Assembly (NCBI GenBank): GCA_046760705.1
Contig: JBHIER010000141.1
Span: 1 to 7,887 of the forward strand
Length of the DNA stretch: 7,887 bases
Source: JBHIER01 sp046760705 [NCBI: bacterium]
GTDB lineage: Bacteria > JBHIER01 > G020348925
Direction: 5' to 3'
Part shown: piece by piece, positions 262 to 7,786 of the stretch
Numbering within the stretch: position 1 is the first letter of the stretch
How the letters are laid out: each line of letters opens with the position of its first letter
Translations under genes and position numbers: made by a program
Notes under the pieces: generated by a model
Seen by the model: only the letters and a program-made list of their open reading frames with translations
Told to the model about the DNA's origin: nothing
Database searches by the model: none

Positions 262-864
262 TCAGCGAAGCCTGTATTCCCCTTTGTAATATCCCTTGGG
301 CGTGAAGATATAAATGGGCTTCTTCTTCCTGGAAAGGTACCGCCGAACTTGAATCGATTCGTCACGATAAACGTCGCGCTCGGAGGGCTCTTTCTTAAAG
401 ATATACTTCCACATCTTAATCTGGTCCGAAACGAACTTTTTTGAGATGAGTTGCGGCTTGTCTACGAGAGGGCACTTGTTTCCGAGACGGTAGTTGTAGA
501 CGAGGCCGAGGAGATTTCCCTCCAAGTCTAAGTAGGGCTCAAAGGGGAAGATGCGACAACTGATGGAGCGGTACCGACGATCGCACCGCTCCGGCCCCAA
601 ACACTTACCGAAGACGGTGCCCTTGTCCGTTTCGGCCACCAGCCTTTTTTCATGTTTCGTCTTCGGCCTGAACCGCTTCCAGAGTCCGGTACGCTTCTGC
701 AGATATTTGAATTCCCTCTTGTACATGACCGGGATGAGCCTCACGGTATCGCAGCAGGAGGGAATGCCCTCGTTCTTCGGGGCACAGAGTCGACCGCAGT
801 CATACCTCAACGGGGTCGAGTCGTAATGGCGATAGATGTACGCGAAGTCTTTTTCAACCAGCAT
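262..864 (-). CDS. YkgJ-like cysteine-cluster (Zn/Fe-chelating) protein
   Basis: Encodes 200 residues from the ATG at 864, which has AGGGA about 8 bases upstream. A TTG at 894 would add 10 residues but its AAGGA lies only two bases away. There are eight Cys: C23, C27, C37, C38, C88, C94, C103 and C131. The pattern is C-x3-C-x9-CC, then C-x5-C-x8-CRIFPFEP. The CC pair followed by a hydrophobic segment and the closing C-R-x-F-P-F match the YkgJ family, annotated as a putative zinc- or iron-chelating domain; the biochemical role of that family is not settled. The C-terminal 50 residues are rich in Lys, Arg and Tyr. No signal peptide or membrane segment is seen, so it is probably cytoplasmic. It starts about 50 bases after selD on the same strand, so it is likely the last gene of the sel operon. 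Whether it serves selenium metabolism is inference. Confidence 0.78.
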   Translation of the reverse strand: MLVEKDFAYIYRHYDSTPLRYDCGRLCAPKNEGIPSCCDTVRLIPVMYKREFKYLQKRTGLWKRFRPKTKHEKRLVAETDKGTVFGKCLGPERCDRRYRSISCRIFPFEPYLDLEGNLLGLVYNYRLGNKCPLVDKPQLISKKFVSDQIKMWKYIFKKEPSERDVYRDESIQVRRYLSRKKKPIYIFTPKGYYKGEYRLR

Positions 865-913
865 GGTAGATTTCCCTACTTTCCATTGGGTCAACTTCCT
901 TCTGTCATCGCGA

Positions 914-1966
914 TCAGCTCACGACGATCATGCCTGGGGGTTCGGAGATCACCTGGCCAATAATCTCCGCGTCCCGAACACCGGCCTGGCGGAGTCGATC
1001 GAGAAGCTCTTCCGCCTTTTCCCTCTCGACGGAGATCAACAGCCCCCCCGATGTCTGGGCGTCGTAGAAGATGGGCTGAAGCTCCTCAGGGGCACAGGAG
1101 TCCCAGGTGACGTGTTGCGAATAGAACTTTTGGTTGGCCTTGGAGCCGCCGGGGATCAGCCCCGCCTCGGCCAGCTCCACTGCCTCTGGAAAGATGGGGA
1201 TTTTCCTCGCGTAGAGGCGAAAGGCCACCTGACTGCTCTCAGCCATCTCACAGGCATGGCCCAGCAGACCGAACCCGGTGATGTCGGTACAGGCGTGAGC
1301 CCCAATTGCAACCATCGCCTCGGAGGCTTCGTCGTTCAAAGCAACCATGGCCCGGATGGCTTTATCCACCGTCTGAGCTTCGGCCTTGCCGGCCTTGATG
1401 GTTGTGGTCATAATCCCAATCCCCAAGGGTTTGGTCAAGATGAGTCCATCCCCGGGTCTGGCCCCGGCATTGGTCACGATCCGATCCGGGTGGACCGTGC
1501 CGGTGACGGCCAGGCCGTATTTGAGCTCCCGATCATCAACGGTGTGACCGCCCATCAAGAGGACCCCGGCCTCTTTCAACTTCTCGATGCCACCTTTGAG
1601 CATCTGGGCCAGGATATCCAGATCCATCTCCCCTGTGGGAAAACCGACGACGTTCAGAGCCATGACCGGTTTCCCCCCCATGGCATACACATCACTGAGA
1701 GAGTTGGCCACCGTGATCTGGCCGAAGGTGTAAGCATCGTCCACCACCGGGGTGATGAAATCGACCGTCTGAATGATCGCCACCTCGTCGGTCAAACGGT
1801 AGACCCCGGCATCGTCCCCAGCCTCCGGGCCGAGGATGAGCCGGTCGTCTTCAATTTTGGGCAACTGATGCAGCACGTGCATCAGATCCTGCGGATTCAA
1901 CTTCGATGCTCAGCCCGCGCAGCGGACTTGCTGGGTCAGTCGCTTCTCAATCTCTTCCTTGGTCAT
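914..1966 (-). CDS. selD: Selenide, water dikinase; selenoprotein with Sec at codon 19
   Basis: SelD makes selenophosphate from selenide and ATP, the selenium donor for selenocysteine. The frame from the ATG at 1966 encodes 350 residues if the TGA at 1910-1912 is read as selenocysteine. The N-terminus then contains C-A-G-U-A-S-K-L, aligning with G-A-G-C-G-C-K-I of E. coli SelD. U19 takes the place of catalytic Cys17, and K22 of the essential Lys20. Other family motifs follow: G-D-D-A (50-53), V-D-F (68-70), L-S-D-V-Y-A-M-G-G-K-P (90-100), then D-I-T-G-F-G-L-L-G-H and the D-A-Q-T-S-G-G-L-L motif near the C-terminus. A standard call would begin at the TTG at 1900 and lose the active site. The ribosome-binding site is weak: AGGA lies 11 bases before the ATG, or 5 before an in-frame TTG at 1972. 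It follows selB after a 180-base gap and precedes the YkgJ-like gene. Confidence 0.95.
1865..1885 (-). promoter_or_regulatory. Bacterial SECIS hairpin for the selD UGA
   Basis: On the coding strand CTGATGCA pairs perfectly with TGCATCAG (8 base pairs) around the five-base loop CGTGC. The stem begins 24 bases after the UGA and the loop 32 bases after it, within the usual spacing of a bacterial SECIS, which lies inside the coding region just after the UGA. Such elements have a short apical loop with G and U contacted by the last winged helix of SelB; this loop contains G-U-G. Stem and distance are read directly. Function is inferred from the in-frame UGA at the catalytic position. Confidence 0.8.
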
Positions 1967-2020
1967 GGTCAACGTTTTCCTATCATTGTATTCTTTTGAG
2001 AACACGCACCTGCAGCAGCT

Positions 2021-2146: not shown

Positions 2147-4072
2147 TCAAACGATCTTCGCATTCTCCTCCAGAAGCACCCGCTCGTCCTCCACTCGGCG
2201 GGTCAGGTGGGTGCGGTCGAAATATTCGAGCAGAGCCAGGGAGTACTTCCTACTGGTGTTGAACCGGTCCCGGAACTGGGCCACGGTGATGCTTCCCTGC
2301 TGGCGGATGAAGCTTTTCACAAATTCCGTCGCCTGCTCCACAGCCTGGCGATGAAAGACCACTTTTCCGGAGGTTCTGACCAGAGTCCCCTCCTCCACAA
2401 GGAGATTGAGCATCCCTCTCAGCTCTGGCCCGGAGCCCAGCCTTCTCTCGATCTCCTCAAAGCCCGGCGGTTCGAAGAGCCTGTCGAGGTGGATTCTCTC
2501 AAGTCTATCCTTCAAAGCCTGTTGGGTGGGTGGCAGAAAACTCTCCCGCCCGACCGGGCAGACCTTCCCCTCCTGCAGGCGGATCTGCCCTGTGCTCAGC
2601 AACTGTTCTGTCAATTGGTCAAAGAGGATAGGATCCGCACCCAGGGCTAACTTGGATTTGACCTCCTCCTTGGGCATACCTTTCTTGTACGGATTGGCCT
2701 CGAAATACTCGCTGACAAGGGATCTAAACTCTTTCAAGAGTCGATCGAAGGTCTGGGCCCCGATGAGGGCCTCCCGGTTCTCCTTTCTGAGCCGTCGTAT
2801 CTGACCTTTGGCGATGAGCGTTTCCGCGGCCTCGAGCAGCTCTTCCCGGTCCACATTGAGATAGGACGCTAACTCATCGATGGAAAACGCCCTCTTCCGG
2901 CGTTCGAGCAGTTGGTGCACAATATCACCGAGCCGGTCGCTCTCCATGGTCGCCAAAAATGTGGCCACCTCCTGGGCCTCCTTGCGCCGAAACCTCTGGG
3001 GCCGGATGTCGATCACCTGTCCTCCTCCGATGGTGGCAACGGGAAGGGGTTTGCGAAGGACAAACCGATCGCCCCGCAGGGCCACCACGGACTCCTTTAG
3101 CCTCATCCGGGCCAACGCCGATTCGCCCGGCTTGGTCTCCTTTCGATCAAAGAGGATGACCTGGGCCGGGATCTGAGTGGTTCCCAGGTGAAATTGGACG
3201 TGGGTCCGATCCGCCAAAGGTCTCTTCGCCCCCTCCAGCACGAAGAGCCTGGCGTCGAGCGTCTGGGTACGTTCGAAGACCCCTGGAGTCACCAGGACGT
3301 CCCCCCGTTGCAGTTGGGATTTCTCCACATCCGGCAGGTTGAGGGCTGTTCGCTGGCCGGCGTAGGCCCGCTCCACTTTCTGGTTGTGGACCTGAATCCC
3401 GCGGATGCGGACGCTCCGTCCGGAGGGGAGAACCTCCAGGGTGTCTCCGACGGTCCCTGAGCCGGAAAAGACGGTCCCGGTGACTACCGTGCCGAAGCCC
3501 TTCATGGTGAAGACCCGATCGACGGGAAGCCGAAAGGGGCCCCGCTCGGACTTGGCCTCAATGTGCCGGACCGCCTCCTCGATGGCCGCTTTCAGCTCCG
3601 GGATCCCCTGGTGGGTGGCCGATGAGACTCTCAAGATCGGTGCCTCTTGGAGAAAGGTCCCGGCAACCGTCTCTTTGATGTCCTCTTCGACGAACTCGAT
3701 CTGCTCCTCGTCGGCCAGATCCGTCTTGGTGACGACGGCCAATCCGTTCTCGAGGTGAAGGAGCCGGAGGATGTCGAGGTGTTCTCTGGTCTGGGGCATG
3801 ACCCCCTCGTCGGCGGCCACTACCAGCAGGACGAGGTCCATGCCCACCGCACCGGCCAGCATATTCTTTACAAACCGCTCATGTCCAGGGACGTCGACAA
3901 TGCCTGCCCGCTGGCCCCCGGGCAGATCGAAATAGGCAAACCCCAGGTCGATGGACAGACCGCGCTCCTTCTCCTCCTTGAGGCGGTCCGTCTCGATGCC
4001 TGTCAGGGCCCGGATGAGGGCCGTCTTGCCGTGGTCGATGTGGCCGGCCGTGCCGATGATGATGTGTCTCAT
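2147..4072 (-). CDS. selB: Selenocysteine-specific elongation factor SelB
   Basis: SelB is the GTP-binding factor that carries selenocysteyl-tRNA(Sec) to the ribosome at UGA codons marked by a SECIS. The product has 641 residues, close to the 614 of E. coli SelB. GTPase motifs are complete: G-x4-G-K-T within G-H-I-D-H-G-K-T (10-17), [10 protein letters not shown] (36-45), D-V-P-G-H-E (60-65), T-K-T-D (115-118) and S-S-A (150-152). A translation-factor beta-barrel segment with F-G-T-V-V-T-G-T follows at 193-200. The C-terminal half, from about residue 375, is rich in charged helices and fits the four winged-helix repeats that bind the SECIS. The start ATG lies 7 bases after the selA stop. Its AAGGG sequence almost touches the ATG, so translation is probably coupled to selA. 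No frameshift or missing motif is seen. Confidence 0.98.
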
Positions 4073-4079
4073 CCCTTAT

Positions 4080-5495
4080 TTAATTATAGTCTAATGTCTT
4101 GAGGGTGGACCTTACGTGGCTCTCCTCGCTCGTGCGAATCGTTCTCACATCGAGCAGAACCCTGTCCTGATGGATGCGGCCGATGATGGGGATAAGTTGT
4201 TGTCGGAGCCGAGCCGCCAGTTCATCAGGCGAAATGCGGAGCGGCCTCAATGCGATGAGCTTAGTGGGTAAACTCTCCGCAGGCAATGATCCCCCGCCCA
4301 CCCGGGAGAGGCCGTCTTCCAGGCTCATTTCGACCTTGCCTCGGAGATCGAGCAACAGGTCTTCGATTATCTTTGAGGCCGACCGCTCAATATCCTCCAG
4401 GGGTCTGGTTAAGAACCTGAGGATTGGGAGCTTGGCTGCAATATCCGGCTCAGTCAGATATATCCGGAGAGTGGCCTCGAGGGCGGCCAGAGTGGACTTA
4501 TCCACCCGAAGGGCCCGCCTTAGGGGATTTTTCCGCACCCGTTCCACAAGGGCTTTTTCCCCCACAATAATGCCGGCCTGGGGCCCTCCGAGAAGCTTGT
4601 CGCCGCTGAAGGTGACCAGATCAGCGCCGCTCTCCACGCACTCCTTGGCCACAGGTTCCTTTTCGAGCCCATACTGGGAGAGGTCAACGAGGGCGCCACT
4701 GCCAAGATCGTATACGACGGGCAGACGGCGTTGCGCACCGAGGGCTACCAAGTCCTCGACCGCGACGTCGGCAGTGAAGCCGACGACGATGAAATTACTG
4801 GGATGGACGCACAGCAAAGCTCCGGTTCTATCGGTGATGGCCCTTTCATAGTCCTTGAGGTAGGTCCGGTTGGTCGTCCCCACCTCCACCAATCTCGCCC
4901 CGCTCTTGGCCACCACCTCCGGCAGACGGAAGGAGCCGCCGATCTCGATCAATTGGCCGCGGGAGATGATGACCTCCTTGCCCTCGGCCAAAGTGTTCAA
5001 GCCCAGCAGCACAGCCGCAGCGTTGTTGTTGACCACCGTGGCCCCCTCGGCCCCGGTGAGCCGGCACAGAAGATTCTCCACGTGAACATCCCGGTGGCCT
5101 CGCTTTCCGTCCTGGAGACTAAGTTCCAGATTGCAAAATGACTCGGCGGCTCGCTCCATAGCCTCAACTGCCTTATCAGCCAACAAGGCCCGCCCGAGGC
5201 CGGTGTGCAACAGGATACCGGTGGCATTGACCACGCCCTTGAGGTTCGACTCGCCCCTGGCCTTCATCAGTATCTCGACCTTCTCAAGGATCCCCTCCGG
5301 TGAGAGATCGAGGGACCTTCGCTCCCCTTGGCCCTCCCTGATCTTCGTGCGCAGCAGGTCCAAATATTCGCGGATGGCATCCCTGATAAAGGGGCGCGAA
5401 TATATTCGCAAAAGATCTTTTGCCACCGGATGCTCCAGGAGGCTCTCCACAGCCGGAATCTGGGAGAGGAGCGAACCACCCTTTTTACTGCTCAT
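4080..5495 (-). CDS. selA: L-seryl-tRNA(Sec) selenium transferase SelA
   Basis: SelA is the pyridoxal-phosphate enzyme that converts seryl-tRNA(Sec) to selenocysteyl-tRNA(Sec) using selenophosphate from SelD. From the ATG at 5495 it has 471 residues, near the 463 of E. coli SelA. The N-terminus [13 protein letters not shown] is typical of the family. The [10 protein letters not shown] motif sits at 155-164, and [10 protein letters not shown] carries the expected cofactor lysine at K300 (Lys295 in E. coli). A TTG at 5537 would add 14 residues, but it lies only about 5 bases after the predicted transcription start and so would lack a ribosome-binding site. The ATG at 5495 has AAGGGA some 11 bases upstream. 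It is the first gene of the operon, 7 bases before selB. Confidence 0.98.
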
Positions 5496-5779: not shown

Positions 5780-7786
5780 ATGGAGGAGAGAAAACAGACT
5801 GGCCTACCCCAGAACGCTTACACCCCTTTGAAGGATGGGGAGGAGTACATCTCCTACGTCCCCGCCGCTCAATACCCACCGGAGATCACTCTCCGCTCGG
5901 TCCTGTGGGGGGTGCTCATGTCTGCGGTCTTCACAGCGGCCGCAGCCTATCTCGGTCTCAAGATCGGTCAGGTCTTCGAGGCAGCCATTCCCATTGCCAT
6001 ACTCGCGGTGGGCATCGCCGGGATTTATGCCCGGCGCAGCAGTATTTTGGAGAACGTCATCATCCAATCGATCGGGGCCGCCTCAGGTGTGGTGGTGGCC
6101 GGGGCGATCTTCACCATCCCGGCCCTCTATATTCTGGAGCTCGATGCCAACTTCTTTCAGATCTTCCTGGCCTCCCTCTTCGGCGGATTTCTGGGCATTC
6201 TTTTCCTCATCCCGCTCCGCAGATATTTTTGTGCTGACCAGCACGGACTGCTCCCCTTCCCGGAGGCAACGGCCACCACAGAGGTGCTGGTCACCGGCGA
6301 AGGCGGGGGCGAACAGGCCAGGGTGCTCGTCTGGGCAGCCCTGTTGGGGGGGCTGTACGACTTCTGCATCGCCAGTTTCGGTCTGTGGCGGGAGATCGTC
6401 TCGACGCGTGTGATCCCCTGGGGGGCAGCCTTGGCCGAGAAGGCGAAGCTGGTGGTCAGGCTCAACGCTGGGGCAGCCGTCATGGGCCTGGGCTATATCG
6501 TCGGCCTGCGCTACTCGGCCATCATCTGCGCCGGGAGCCTCGTCTCCTGGCTGGTGATCATCCCGGCCATCTGGTACTTCGGCCAACATATAGGGATCAC
6601 AATCGTTCCCGGTGAGATACCCATAGCCGAGATGAGCCCGGAGCAGATCTTCTCCAATTACGTCCGGCACATAGGCATAGGTGGCATTGCCTGCGCTGGT
6701 ATGATCGGTATCATAAAGAATATTAACATCATCGTCCGAGCCTTCTCCCTGGGGATCAAGGAGATTTTCCGGGGCAAGCTGGCCAGCGCTGAGGCTGGAC
6801 CGAGGACCCAGAGGGATCTGCCCATGTCAACTTTGATTCTTCTTATCGCCCTCTCGGTGATCGCCATCCTCCTCTTTTTCCGCGCTCAGGTGGTAGCGAG
6901 CTGGGGTTTTGCTCTGGCCGCGCTGCTGCTGGCGGTCATCATCGGTTTTGTGTTCACCACAGTGGCGGCCCGAGCCATCGCCATTGTCGGGGTCAATCCT
7001 GTCTCAGGGATGACGCTGATGACATTGATCCTCTCCTCGGTCATCCTGGTGAAACTGGGCTTGCACGGCACCGGGGGCATGGTCTCGGCATTGATCATTG
7101 GCACCGTGGTCTGCACCGCCCTGTCCATGTCCGGTGGATTCATCACCGACCTGAAGATCGGGTACTGGCTCGGCTCGACACCTTACAACCAGGAGCGCTT
7201 CAAGTTTCTGGGAACCCTGGTGGCAGCGCTCTGTGTTGGGGGTGTGATCCTTCTCTTGAACAAAACGAACGGCTTCGTGCTCACGGCTGAACATCCCAAC
7301 CCTCTGGCCGCCCCTCAGGCCAATGCCATGGCGGCCATTCTGAAAGTCCTCTTCGGGGCTCAGGCCCCTTGGGGGCTTTACGTCGCCGGTATCTTTATGG
7401 CGCTGACCATGGAACTGATCAAGGTCCCACCCCTCGCCTTCGCTCTGGGGATGTACCTGCCCATAGAGCTCAACACGCCGCTCCTCATCGGCGGCCTCAT
7501 CTCCCATACGGTCTCCACCCGGAGCAAGATCGAGGAGGTGAACACGGCCCGTCGGGAGAGGGGGACGCTTATCGCCTCGGGCTTCATCGCCGGTGGGGCC
7601 CTAATGGGGGTGATCAGCGCCTTTCTGACCCTCATCTTCGCCGACAGGCTCCACACCGGCATCGGTGAGAGGCCAATTGGCGAATGGCTCTCCATTCTCC
7701 TCTTCGCCGGCCTCTGTCTGACCATGTATTATTGGGCCAAGGGAGCGAAGGAGGAGAGCGCTGCGGAAGGAGTGAGCCACGGCTGA
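5780..7786 (+). CDS. OPT-family oligopeptide (or metal-chelate) transporter
   Basis: Encodes a 668-residue integral membrane protein of the OPT superfamily. Known members are proton-coupled importers of small peptides, glutathione-like compounds or, in the yellow-stripe branch, metal chelates; the substrate here cannot be read from sequence. The ATG at 5780 is chosen because AAGGAGG ends 4 bases before it; the frame is open to 5687 but that part lacks such a site. After a soluble head of about 38 residues come some 14 to 16 hydrophobic segments, the first at about 39-60. Family-type motifs are V-N-P-V-S-G-M-T (405-412) and L-G-M-Y-L-P (about 556-561). The tail is short and charged. Length is normal for bacterial OPT proteins. 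It is a single-gene unit transcribed away from selA; a link to selenium is possible from position but not shown. Confidence 0.93.
   Translation: MEERKQTGLPQNAYTPLKDGEEYISYVPAAQYPPEITLRSVLWGVLMSAVFTAAAAYLGLKIGQVFEAAIPIAILAVGIAGIYARRSSILENVIIQSIGAASGVVVAGAIFTIPALYILELDANFFQIFLASLFGGFLGILFLIPLRRYFCADQHGLLPFPEATATTEVLVTGEGGGEQARVLVWAALLGGLYDFCIASFGLWREIVSTRVIPWGAALAEKAKLVVRLNAGAAVMGLGYIVGLRYSAIICAGSLVSWLVIIPAIWYFGQHIGITIVPGEIPIAEMSPEQIFSNYVRHIGIGGIACAGMIGIIKNINIIVRAFSLGIKEIFRGKLASAEAGPRTQRDLPMSTLILLIALSVIAILLFFRAQVVASWGFALAALLLAVIIGFVFTTVAARAIAIVGVNPVSGMTLMTLILSSVILVKLGLHGTGGMVSALIIGTVVCTALSMSGGFITDLKIGYWLGSTPYNQERFKFLGTLVAALCVGGVILLLNKTNGFVLTAEHPNPLAAPQANAMAAILKVLFGAQAPWGLYVAGIFMALTMELIKVPPLAFALGMYLPIELNTPLLIGGLISHTVSTRSKIEEVNTARRERGTLIASGFIAGGALMGVISAFLTLIFADRLHTGIGERPIGEWLSILLFAGLCLTMYYWAKGAKEESAAEGVSHG

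Follow-up and report, generated by a model that had tools for sequence, protein, structure and literature searches.

Selenophosphate synthetases (SelD) that carry selenocysteine (Sec) have long been described and are common, as the accessible portions of several papers attest (PMC1794560, PMC4561486, PMC13188914). In a prokaryotic reference set, 19% of the SelD genes are given as encoding Sec, always at the same position (PMC4561486, accessible portion), and in an ocean set a CxxU motif is given for about 5.6% of the single-domain Sec-SelDs (PMC2398784, likewise in part).

The stretch of DNA analysed here, 7,887 nucleotides long and called the window below, contains a selD gene which an earlier note had proposed to encode a selenoprotein. 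We agree, and put at about 0.96 the probability that the product is both a bacterial selenophosphate synthetase and a selenoprotein in its own right; Sec insertion, SelB binding and enzymatic activity we infer from the DNA. In favour of Sec insertion are the homology of the product, the conservation of the TGA at this one codon, the role of TGA as a stop in other genes of the window, the adjoining selA and selB, and the hairpin, whose register Sec-encoding relatives keep and Cys ones do not. In the mechanism that we envisage, SelB together with Sec-tRNA would bind the SECIS hairpin 24 nt past the UGA, and selenocysteine would enter at residue 19, which is the catalytic position of the N-terminal loop. 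From selenide and ATP the enzyme would then make the selenophosphate that SelA uses, and in this way would supply the selenium for its own Sec. The SelD protein would contain selenium.

The selD reading frame and its neighbours

The genes and elements of the window are these:

914 to 1966, minus strand: selD, selenide water dikinase, with a putative Sec at residue 19 (ATG at 1966, terminal stop TGA at 914-916; TIGR00476)
1901 to 1966, minus strand: the N-terminal 22 codons, missing when ordinary gene calling starts at TTG 1900 (ORF comparison)
1910 to 1912, minus strand: putative Sec-encoding UGA (U19) at the active-site position (TGA or Cys codons in relatives; Cys in 2yye and 3u0o)
1865 to 1885, minus strand: candidate SECIS hairpin with an 8-bp stem and the 5-nt loop CGUGC (stem starting 24 nt and loop 32 nt after the UGA)
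1978 to 1981, minus strand: AGGA, a possible ribosome-binding site 5' of ATG 1966 (read from the sequence, no statistics)
2147 to 4072, minus strand: selB, Sec-specific elongation factor (TIGR00475, E 1.5e-118; SelB-wing_2, SelB-wing_3 and Beta-barrel_SelB)
4080 to 5495, minus strand: selA, L-seryl-tRNA(Sec) selenium transferase (TIGR00474, E 1.5e-175)
262 to 894, minus strand: Cys-rich ORF of 210 aa (ORF262), starting from TTG, directly after selD (ORF call)
5780 to 7786, plus strand: OPT-family oligopeptide transporter, divergent from selA (TIGR00733, E 3.1e-87)

Read from ATG 1966, selD contains exactly one internal in-frame TGA, at codon 19 (plus-strand coordinates 1912-1910), and 3' of it the frame stays open to the end of the gene. 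The surrounding residues are RCAG-U-ASKL, with Cys at residue 16, U19, and Lys22 at +3, in keeping with the active-site Cys or Sec followed by Lys at +3 that is expected of a SelD. The read-through product matches TIGR00476 at equivalog level, as a full-length SelD, over residues 9-317 (E 3.6e-114; 381.2 bits against a cut-off of 125), and this match takes in the residues upstream of the UGA (residues 9-22); the Pfam domains AIRS and AIRS_C are present as well. ORF calling with table 11 yields 914..1900, a product of 328 aa starting from TTG 1900, which corresponds to residue 23. GC3 is 0.73 in 1901..1966 and 0.75 in the remainder of the gene.

The earlier note had claimed that extension past the TGA at 1910-1912 reaches an in-frame start at 1966, that the motif C-A-G-U-A-S-K is thereby restored with Lys three residues beyond the UGA, and that ordinary calling from TTG 1900 costs the enzyme its catalytic residue. 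The sequence agrees on each of these points, as the table-11 ORF omits both U19 and K22. In the alignment with other SelDs that the note had suggested, U19 falls on the Cys of the solved chains 2yye and 3u0o, the latter of which we take to be E. coli SelD, with Cys17 and Lys20 as the relevant residues.

Upstream of selD and on the same strand lie selB and selA, both named by family models, so that the note's placing of SelB and SelA next door holds and the genome of the putative selenoprotein carries both genes, adjoining selD. The window itself contains no tRNA-Sec gene (selC), which presumably lies elsewhere in this genome; of 8 related genomes, 7 have a tRNA-Sec match that exceeds the Rfam cut-off. 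As controls, 14 of 14 named genomes gave a match at a looser E-value and 5 of 14 one above the cut-off, and matches below the cut-off mean little. On contig C68 of genome G170, two tRNA-Sec matches (7946-8039 and 12427-12520; 68.9 and 63.1 bits, both above the cut-off) lie about 4.4 kb apart and are possibly two copies of selC; the same contig also holds a SelD gene with one internal TGA. The one Rfam match in the window, to sRNA P10 (20.3 bits against 37, E 0.26), is below threshold and was taken as chance.

ORF262 stayed without a Pfam match up to E 10 and without an NCBIfam match at 0.001; among 301 genomes of one phylum, only 4 contain related sequences, and one of these is weak. At 17-67 of the window there is a perfect 12-nt inverted repeat, TAGATCCTGAAT / ATTCAGGATCTA, with its arms 27 nt apart; the stretch 10-75, taken as DNA, folds far better than shuffles (z -3.59), and the element resembles a small palindromic repeat of the intergenic kind. 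The gap between selB and selD (1967-2146) measures 180 nt. Promoter and terminator scans of 1850-2200 gave no match, and the fold of 2012-2085 is not clearly above that of shuffles (z -1.02).

The UGA codon in relatives

A scan of genome contigs returned 77 loci encoding relatives, 76 of them with a readable site (L071 ends at a contig edge). The codon at this site is TGA in 51, TGC in 20, TGT in 5 and any other codon in none. With the same codon in 51 of 76 relatives and Cys in the other 25, the TGA at codon 19 of selD is clearly more than chance. Some match was found in 279 of the 301 genomes of the phylum of genome G001, where the weaker matches are, to judge from their E-values, probably related enzymes and not SelD; among the matches listed, those of SelD strength include 9 without an internal stop, the rest having one TGA, and the closest relative is 57% identical.

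In an enlarged set, to which 10 loci of the phylum search and 40 hand-chosen stretches were added, the site is readable in 126 genes, the window counted among them; 93 have TGA, 25 TGC and 8 TGT. The set omits L071 and L120, whose site is unreadable at contig ends, as well as L088-L091, which belong to another query, and it contains near-copies such as L001 and L079 in one genome. The earlier note had named as a case against its reading a close relative whose SelD begins at the TTG and has no active-site Cys or Sec; none was found among the 126, all of which have TGA or a Cys codon. Thinning by shared 4-mers left a non-redundant set of 76 rows, 16 with Cys and 60 with TGA, the window being one of the latter. 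In this set Gly directly before the site and Lys at +3 are present in 60/60 TGA and 16/16 Cys genes.

A second Cys is found in some of these 76 non-redundant genes, either at -3 from the Sec/Cys (17/60 TGA and 7/16 Cys genes) or at +2 (17/60 and 5/16), never at both places together. It may be a bonding partner of the Sec, which is a guess, and the counts ignore shared descent.

TGA is the terminal stop of four window genes (selD, selB, ORF262 and the OPT gene), and selA and selB contain no internal TGA. Because of the four terminal stops, TGA is not reassigned. The in-frame UGA of selD is thus aligned with Cys or UGA in its homologues while TGA also serves as a stop.

Genome contigs, viral contigs, plasmids and the sampled phylum yielded no second record nearly identical to the gene. 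The scan of viral contigs gave no confirmed selD relative, and the plasmid matches (6 records) are distant, the best one reaching 63.7% across 63% of the gene. On these grounds we set aside a viral or mobile origin of selD.

The hairpin downstream of the UGA

The perfect 8-bp hairpin that had been described 24 bases beyond the UGA was found exactly there, as CUGAUGCA-CGUGC-UGCAUCAG (plus-strand coordinates 1885-1865). In the bacterial SECIS model, as given in the accessible part of PMC13188914 (Fig. 2 legend), the loop has 3-9 nt, the upper stem 4-16 bp, and G occupies one of the first two loop positions, at a distance of 16-37 nt from the UGA and with an energy of <= -7.5 kcal/mol. The window's hairpin agrees with this consensus throughout, with a loop of 5 nt, a stem of 8 bp, G in second place, a spacing of 32 nt and -9.8 kcal/mol, the last value being that of the bare hairpin. 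In our own reading of the model, such a hairpin is present in 41/60 TGA genes and also in 5/16 Cys genes, and the model is thus not very specific for Sec genes.

Taken from the window alone, the hairpin is weak evidence. The 53-nt fold does not surpass dinucleotide shuffles (z -0.08), and among 2000 synonymous shuffles a stem of at least 8 bp arose in 11.3% and the MFE was equalled in 16.9%. A score for hairpins with G in the loop stands at the 5% level of 200 shuffles (z -2.8).

It is through comparison with relatives that the hairpin becomes convincing, its register being kept in the Sec-encoding genes but not in the Cys ones. If the 60 TGA genes are scored in precisely the register of the window, 73.5% of the cells for its eight pairs hold a standard pair (73.1% minus the window), as against 26.0-60.3% when the register is slid by 1-6 positions either way; the 16 Cys genes have 44.5% standard pairs in register and 28.1-60.4% in the slid registers. 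A full set of standard pairs at the inner 7 places occurs in 30/59 TGA relatives and in 0/16 Cys genes. Pair changes on both sides, which occur at 7 of the 8 pairs, were dropped as support for the hairpin, since several slid registers also reach 7.

The mean hairpin z was -1.53 in the 60 TGA genes (window included), 29 of which lie at or below -1.65, compared with -0.06 (8.3% at or below -1.65) for 300 control positions within the same genes and -0.53 (4/16) in the Cys genes. Mann-Whitney tests, uncorrected for kinship, gave p 0.004 for TGA versus Cys genes and p 2e-17 for TGA genes versus in-gene positions. A weak difference also separates the Cys genes from 80 control positions inside them (p 0.024); it fits either hairpins that remain from a Sec ancestry or a slight artefact tied to the site.

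Relative to shuffles, the loop of the best hairpin begins preferentially at one of two distances from the UGA in the 60 TGA genes: 31 have it at 30-35 nt, where 7.5 were expected, and 24 have it at 13-20 nt, where 14.0 were expected. For the 16 Cys genes the corresponding numbers are 4 (1.6 expected) and 4 (3.4 expected), and a best hairpin at 30-35 nt is therefore not specific to Sec genes. The two ranges, called distal and proximal below, were chosen after the distribution of best hairpins was known, and gene counts overstate independence.

In a tree of the 76 non-redundant rows, with a midpoint root for drawing only, the window sits in a well-supported set of 16 rows (98/97), the other 15 of which form a set of their own (98/92) with 14 TGA genes and 1 Cys gene. 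Rows labelled Chloroflexota, Planctomycetota and Acidobacteriota are among its neighbours, its end branch measures 0.59, and the phylum is not settled by this placement. In the 14 TGA genes of this sister clade, proximal loops are favoured (mean z -1.87 ± 0.31) and distal ones are not (0.04 ± 0.23), whereas the remaining 45 TGA genes favour the distal placement (-2.43 ± 0.29) and show a weaker proximal signal (-0.96 ± 0.21); the two placement values of the 16 Cys genes are -0.47 ± 0.33 and -0.81 ± 0.59. The window's own hairpin is distal (z -2.64; proximal z -1.05), and the hairpin predicted in its nearest clade lies about 12-16 nt closer to the UGA, a difference that speaks against the Sec reading.

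These data fit a SECIS that shifted once, on the branch that separates the window from its sister clade. That the hairpin was relocated within the SelD family, with the window just outside the switch and keeping the distal form, is a tentative reading to which we give slightly less than even odds. Against it, several proximal hairpins are weak (-4.6 kcal/mol in L078 and -3.8 in L003, with none at all in L005), and at 35 nt L121, L126 and L131 have an additional hairpin, likewise weak, of 4 bp. The titles and abstract openings listed by our literature searches, which ran largely outside the subscription journals, hold no mention of two SECIS placements within SelD. In this family the hairpin seems to have two preferred distances from the UGA, partly following the tree, which would make SelD a useful natural set on the limits of the distance between SECIS and codon; if relocation is true, it would be a natural series on the tolerance of SelB for a SECIS shift of 12-16 nt.

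Alternative readings and known systems

The gene might encode a Cys-SelD, with a TGA that arose through faulty sequencing or assembly. Cys-SelDs are common (25/76 readable relatives), and a close copy that could expose an error is lacking from the genome and viral contigs, the plasmids and the sampled phylum, the closest relative listed being 57% identical. However, 14 of the 15 other rows of the window's smallest well-supported tree set carry TGA, selA and selB adjoin the gene, and an error would leave the Sec-type hairpin register unexplained, as no Cys gene has the inner 7 pairs intact; we consider an error very improbable. Slightly less probable still is a TGA that is a real stop, followed by a start at TTG 1900 and hence a truncated SelD or pseudogene without catalytic residue. 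Such a start is what table-11 calling offers with its 328-aa ORF, but residues 9-22, upstream of or round the UGA, belong to the SelD family match, the frame is open from the UGA to the end of the gene, the Gly at -1 and Lys at +3 are kept without exception in TGA and Cys genes alike, and every relative with a readable site has TGA or Cys. An in-frame TGA would by itself also fit a sense codon, for Trp or another residue, in the code of the organism. This is next to negligible given that four window genes end at TGA, that selB and selA have none internally, and that the relatives without TGA have Cys, not Trp.

With the gene read as a Sec-encoding selD, the comparison with described systems is straightforward. 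According to the accessible parts of Zhang et al. 2006 (PMC1794560) and Mariotti et al. 2015 (PMC4561486), bacterial Sec-SelD/SPS has its UGA at the same single position, together with the SelA/SelB machinery and a hairpin just 3' of the UGA, all of which the window shares. We see no difference of kind from these genes; the window's selD is divergent, with 57% identity to the closest among the matches listed. It is like the CxxU SelDs, as far as these are described in the accessible part of PMC2398784, in its C16-A-G-U19. The Cys at -3 is found in 17 of the 60 non-redundant TGA genes, the window among them, and in 0/15 of the other rows of its tree set. With the solved SelDs 2yye/2zod and 3u0o the product shares homology along almost its entire length (E 1.6e-72 and 2.4e-67), and where those chains have Cys at the site, the window gene has TGA. 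Our analysis thus adds one more putative Sec-SelD to what is a well-known bacterial arrangement. Since Sec-SelD is widespread, the gene is an ordinary one, and the practical point is that an annotation starting at TTG 1900 loses the active site.
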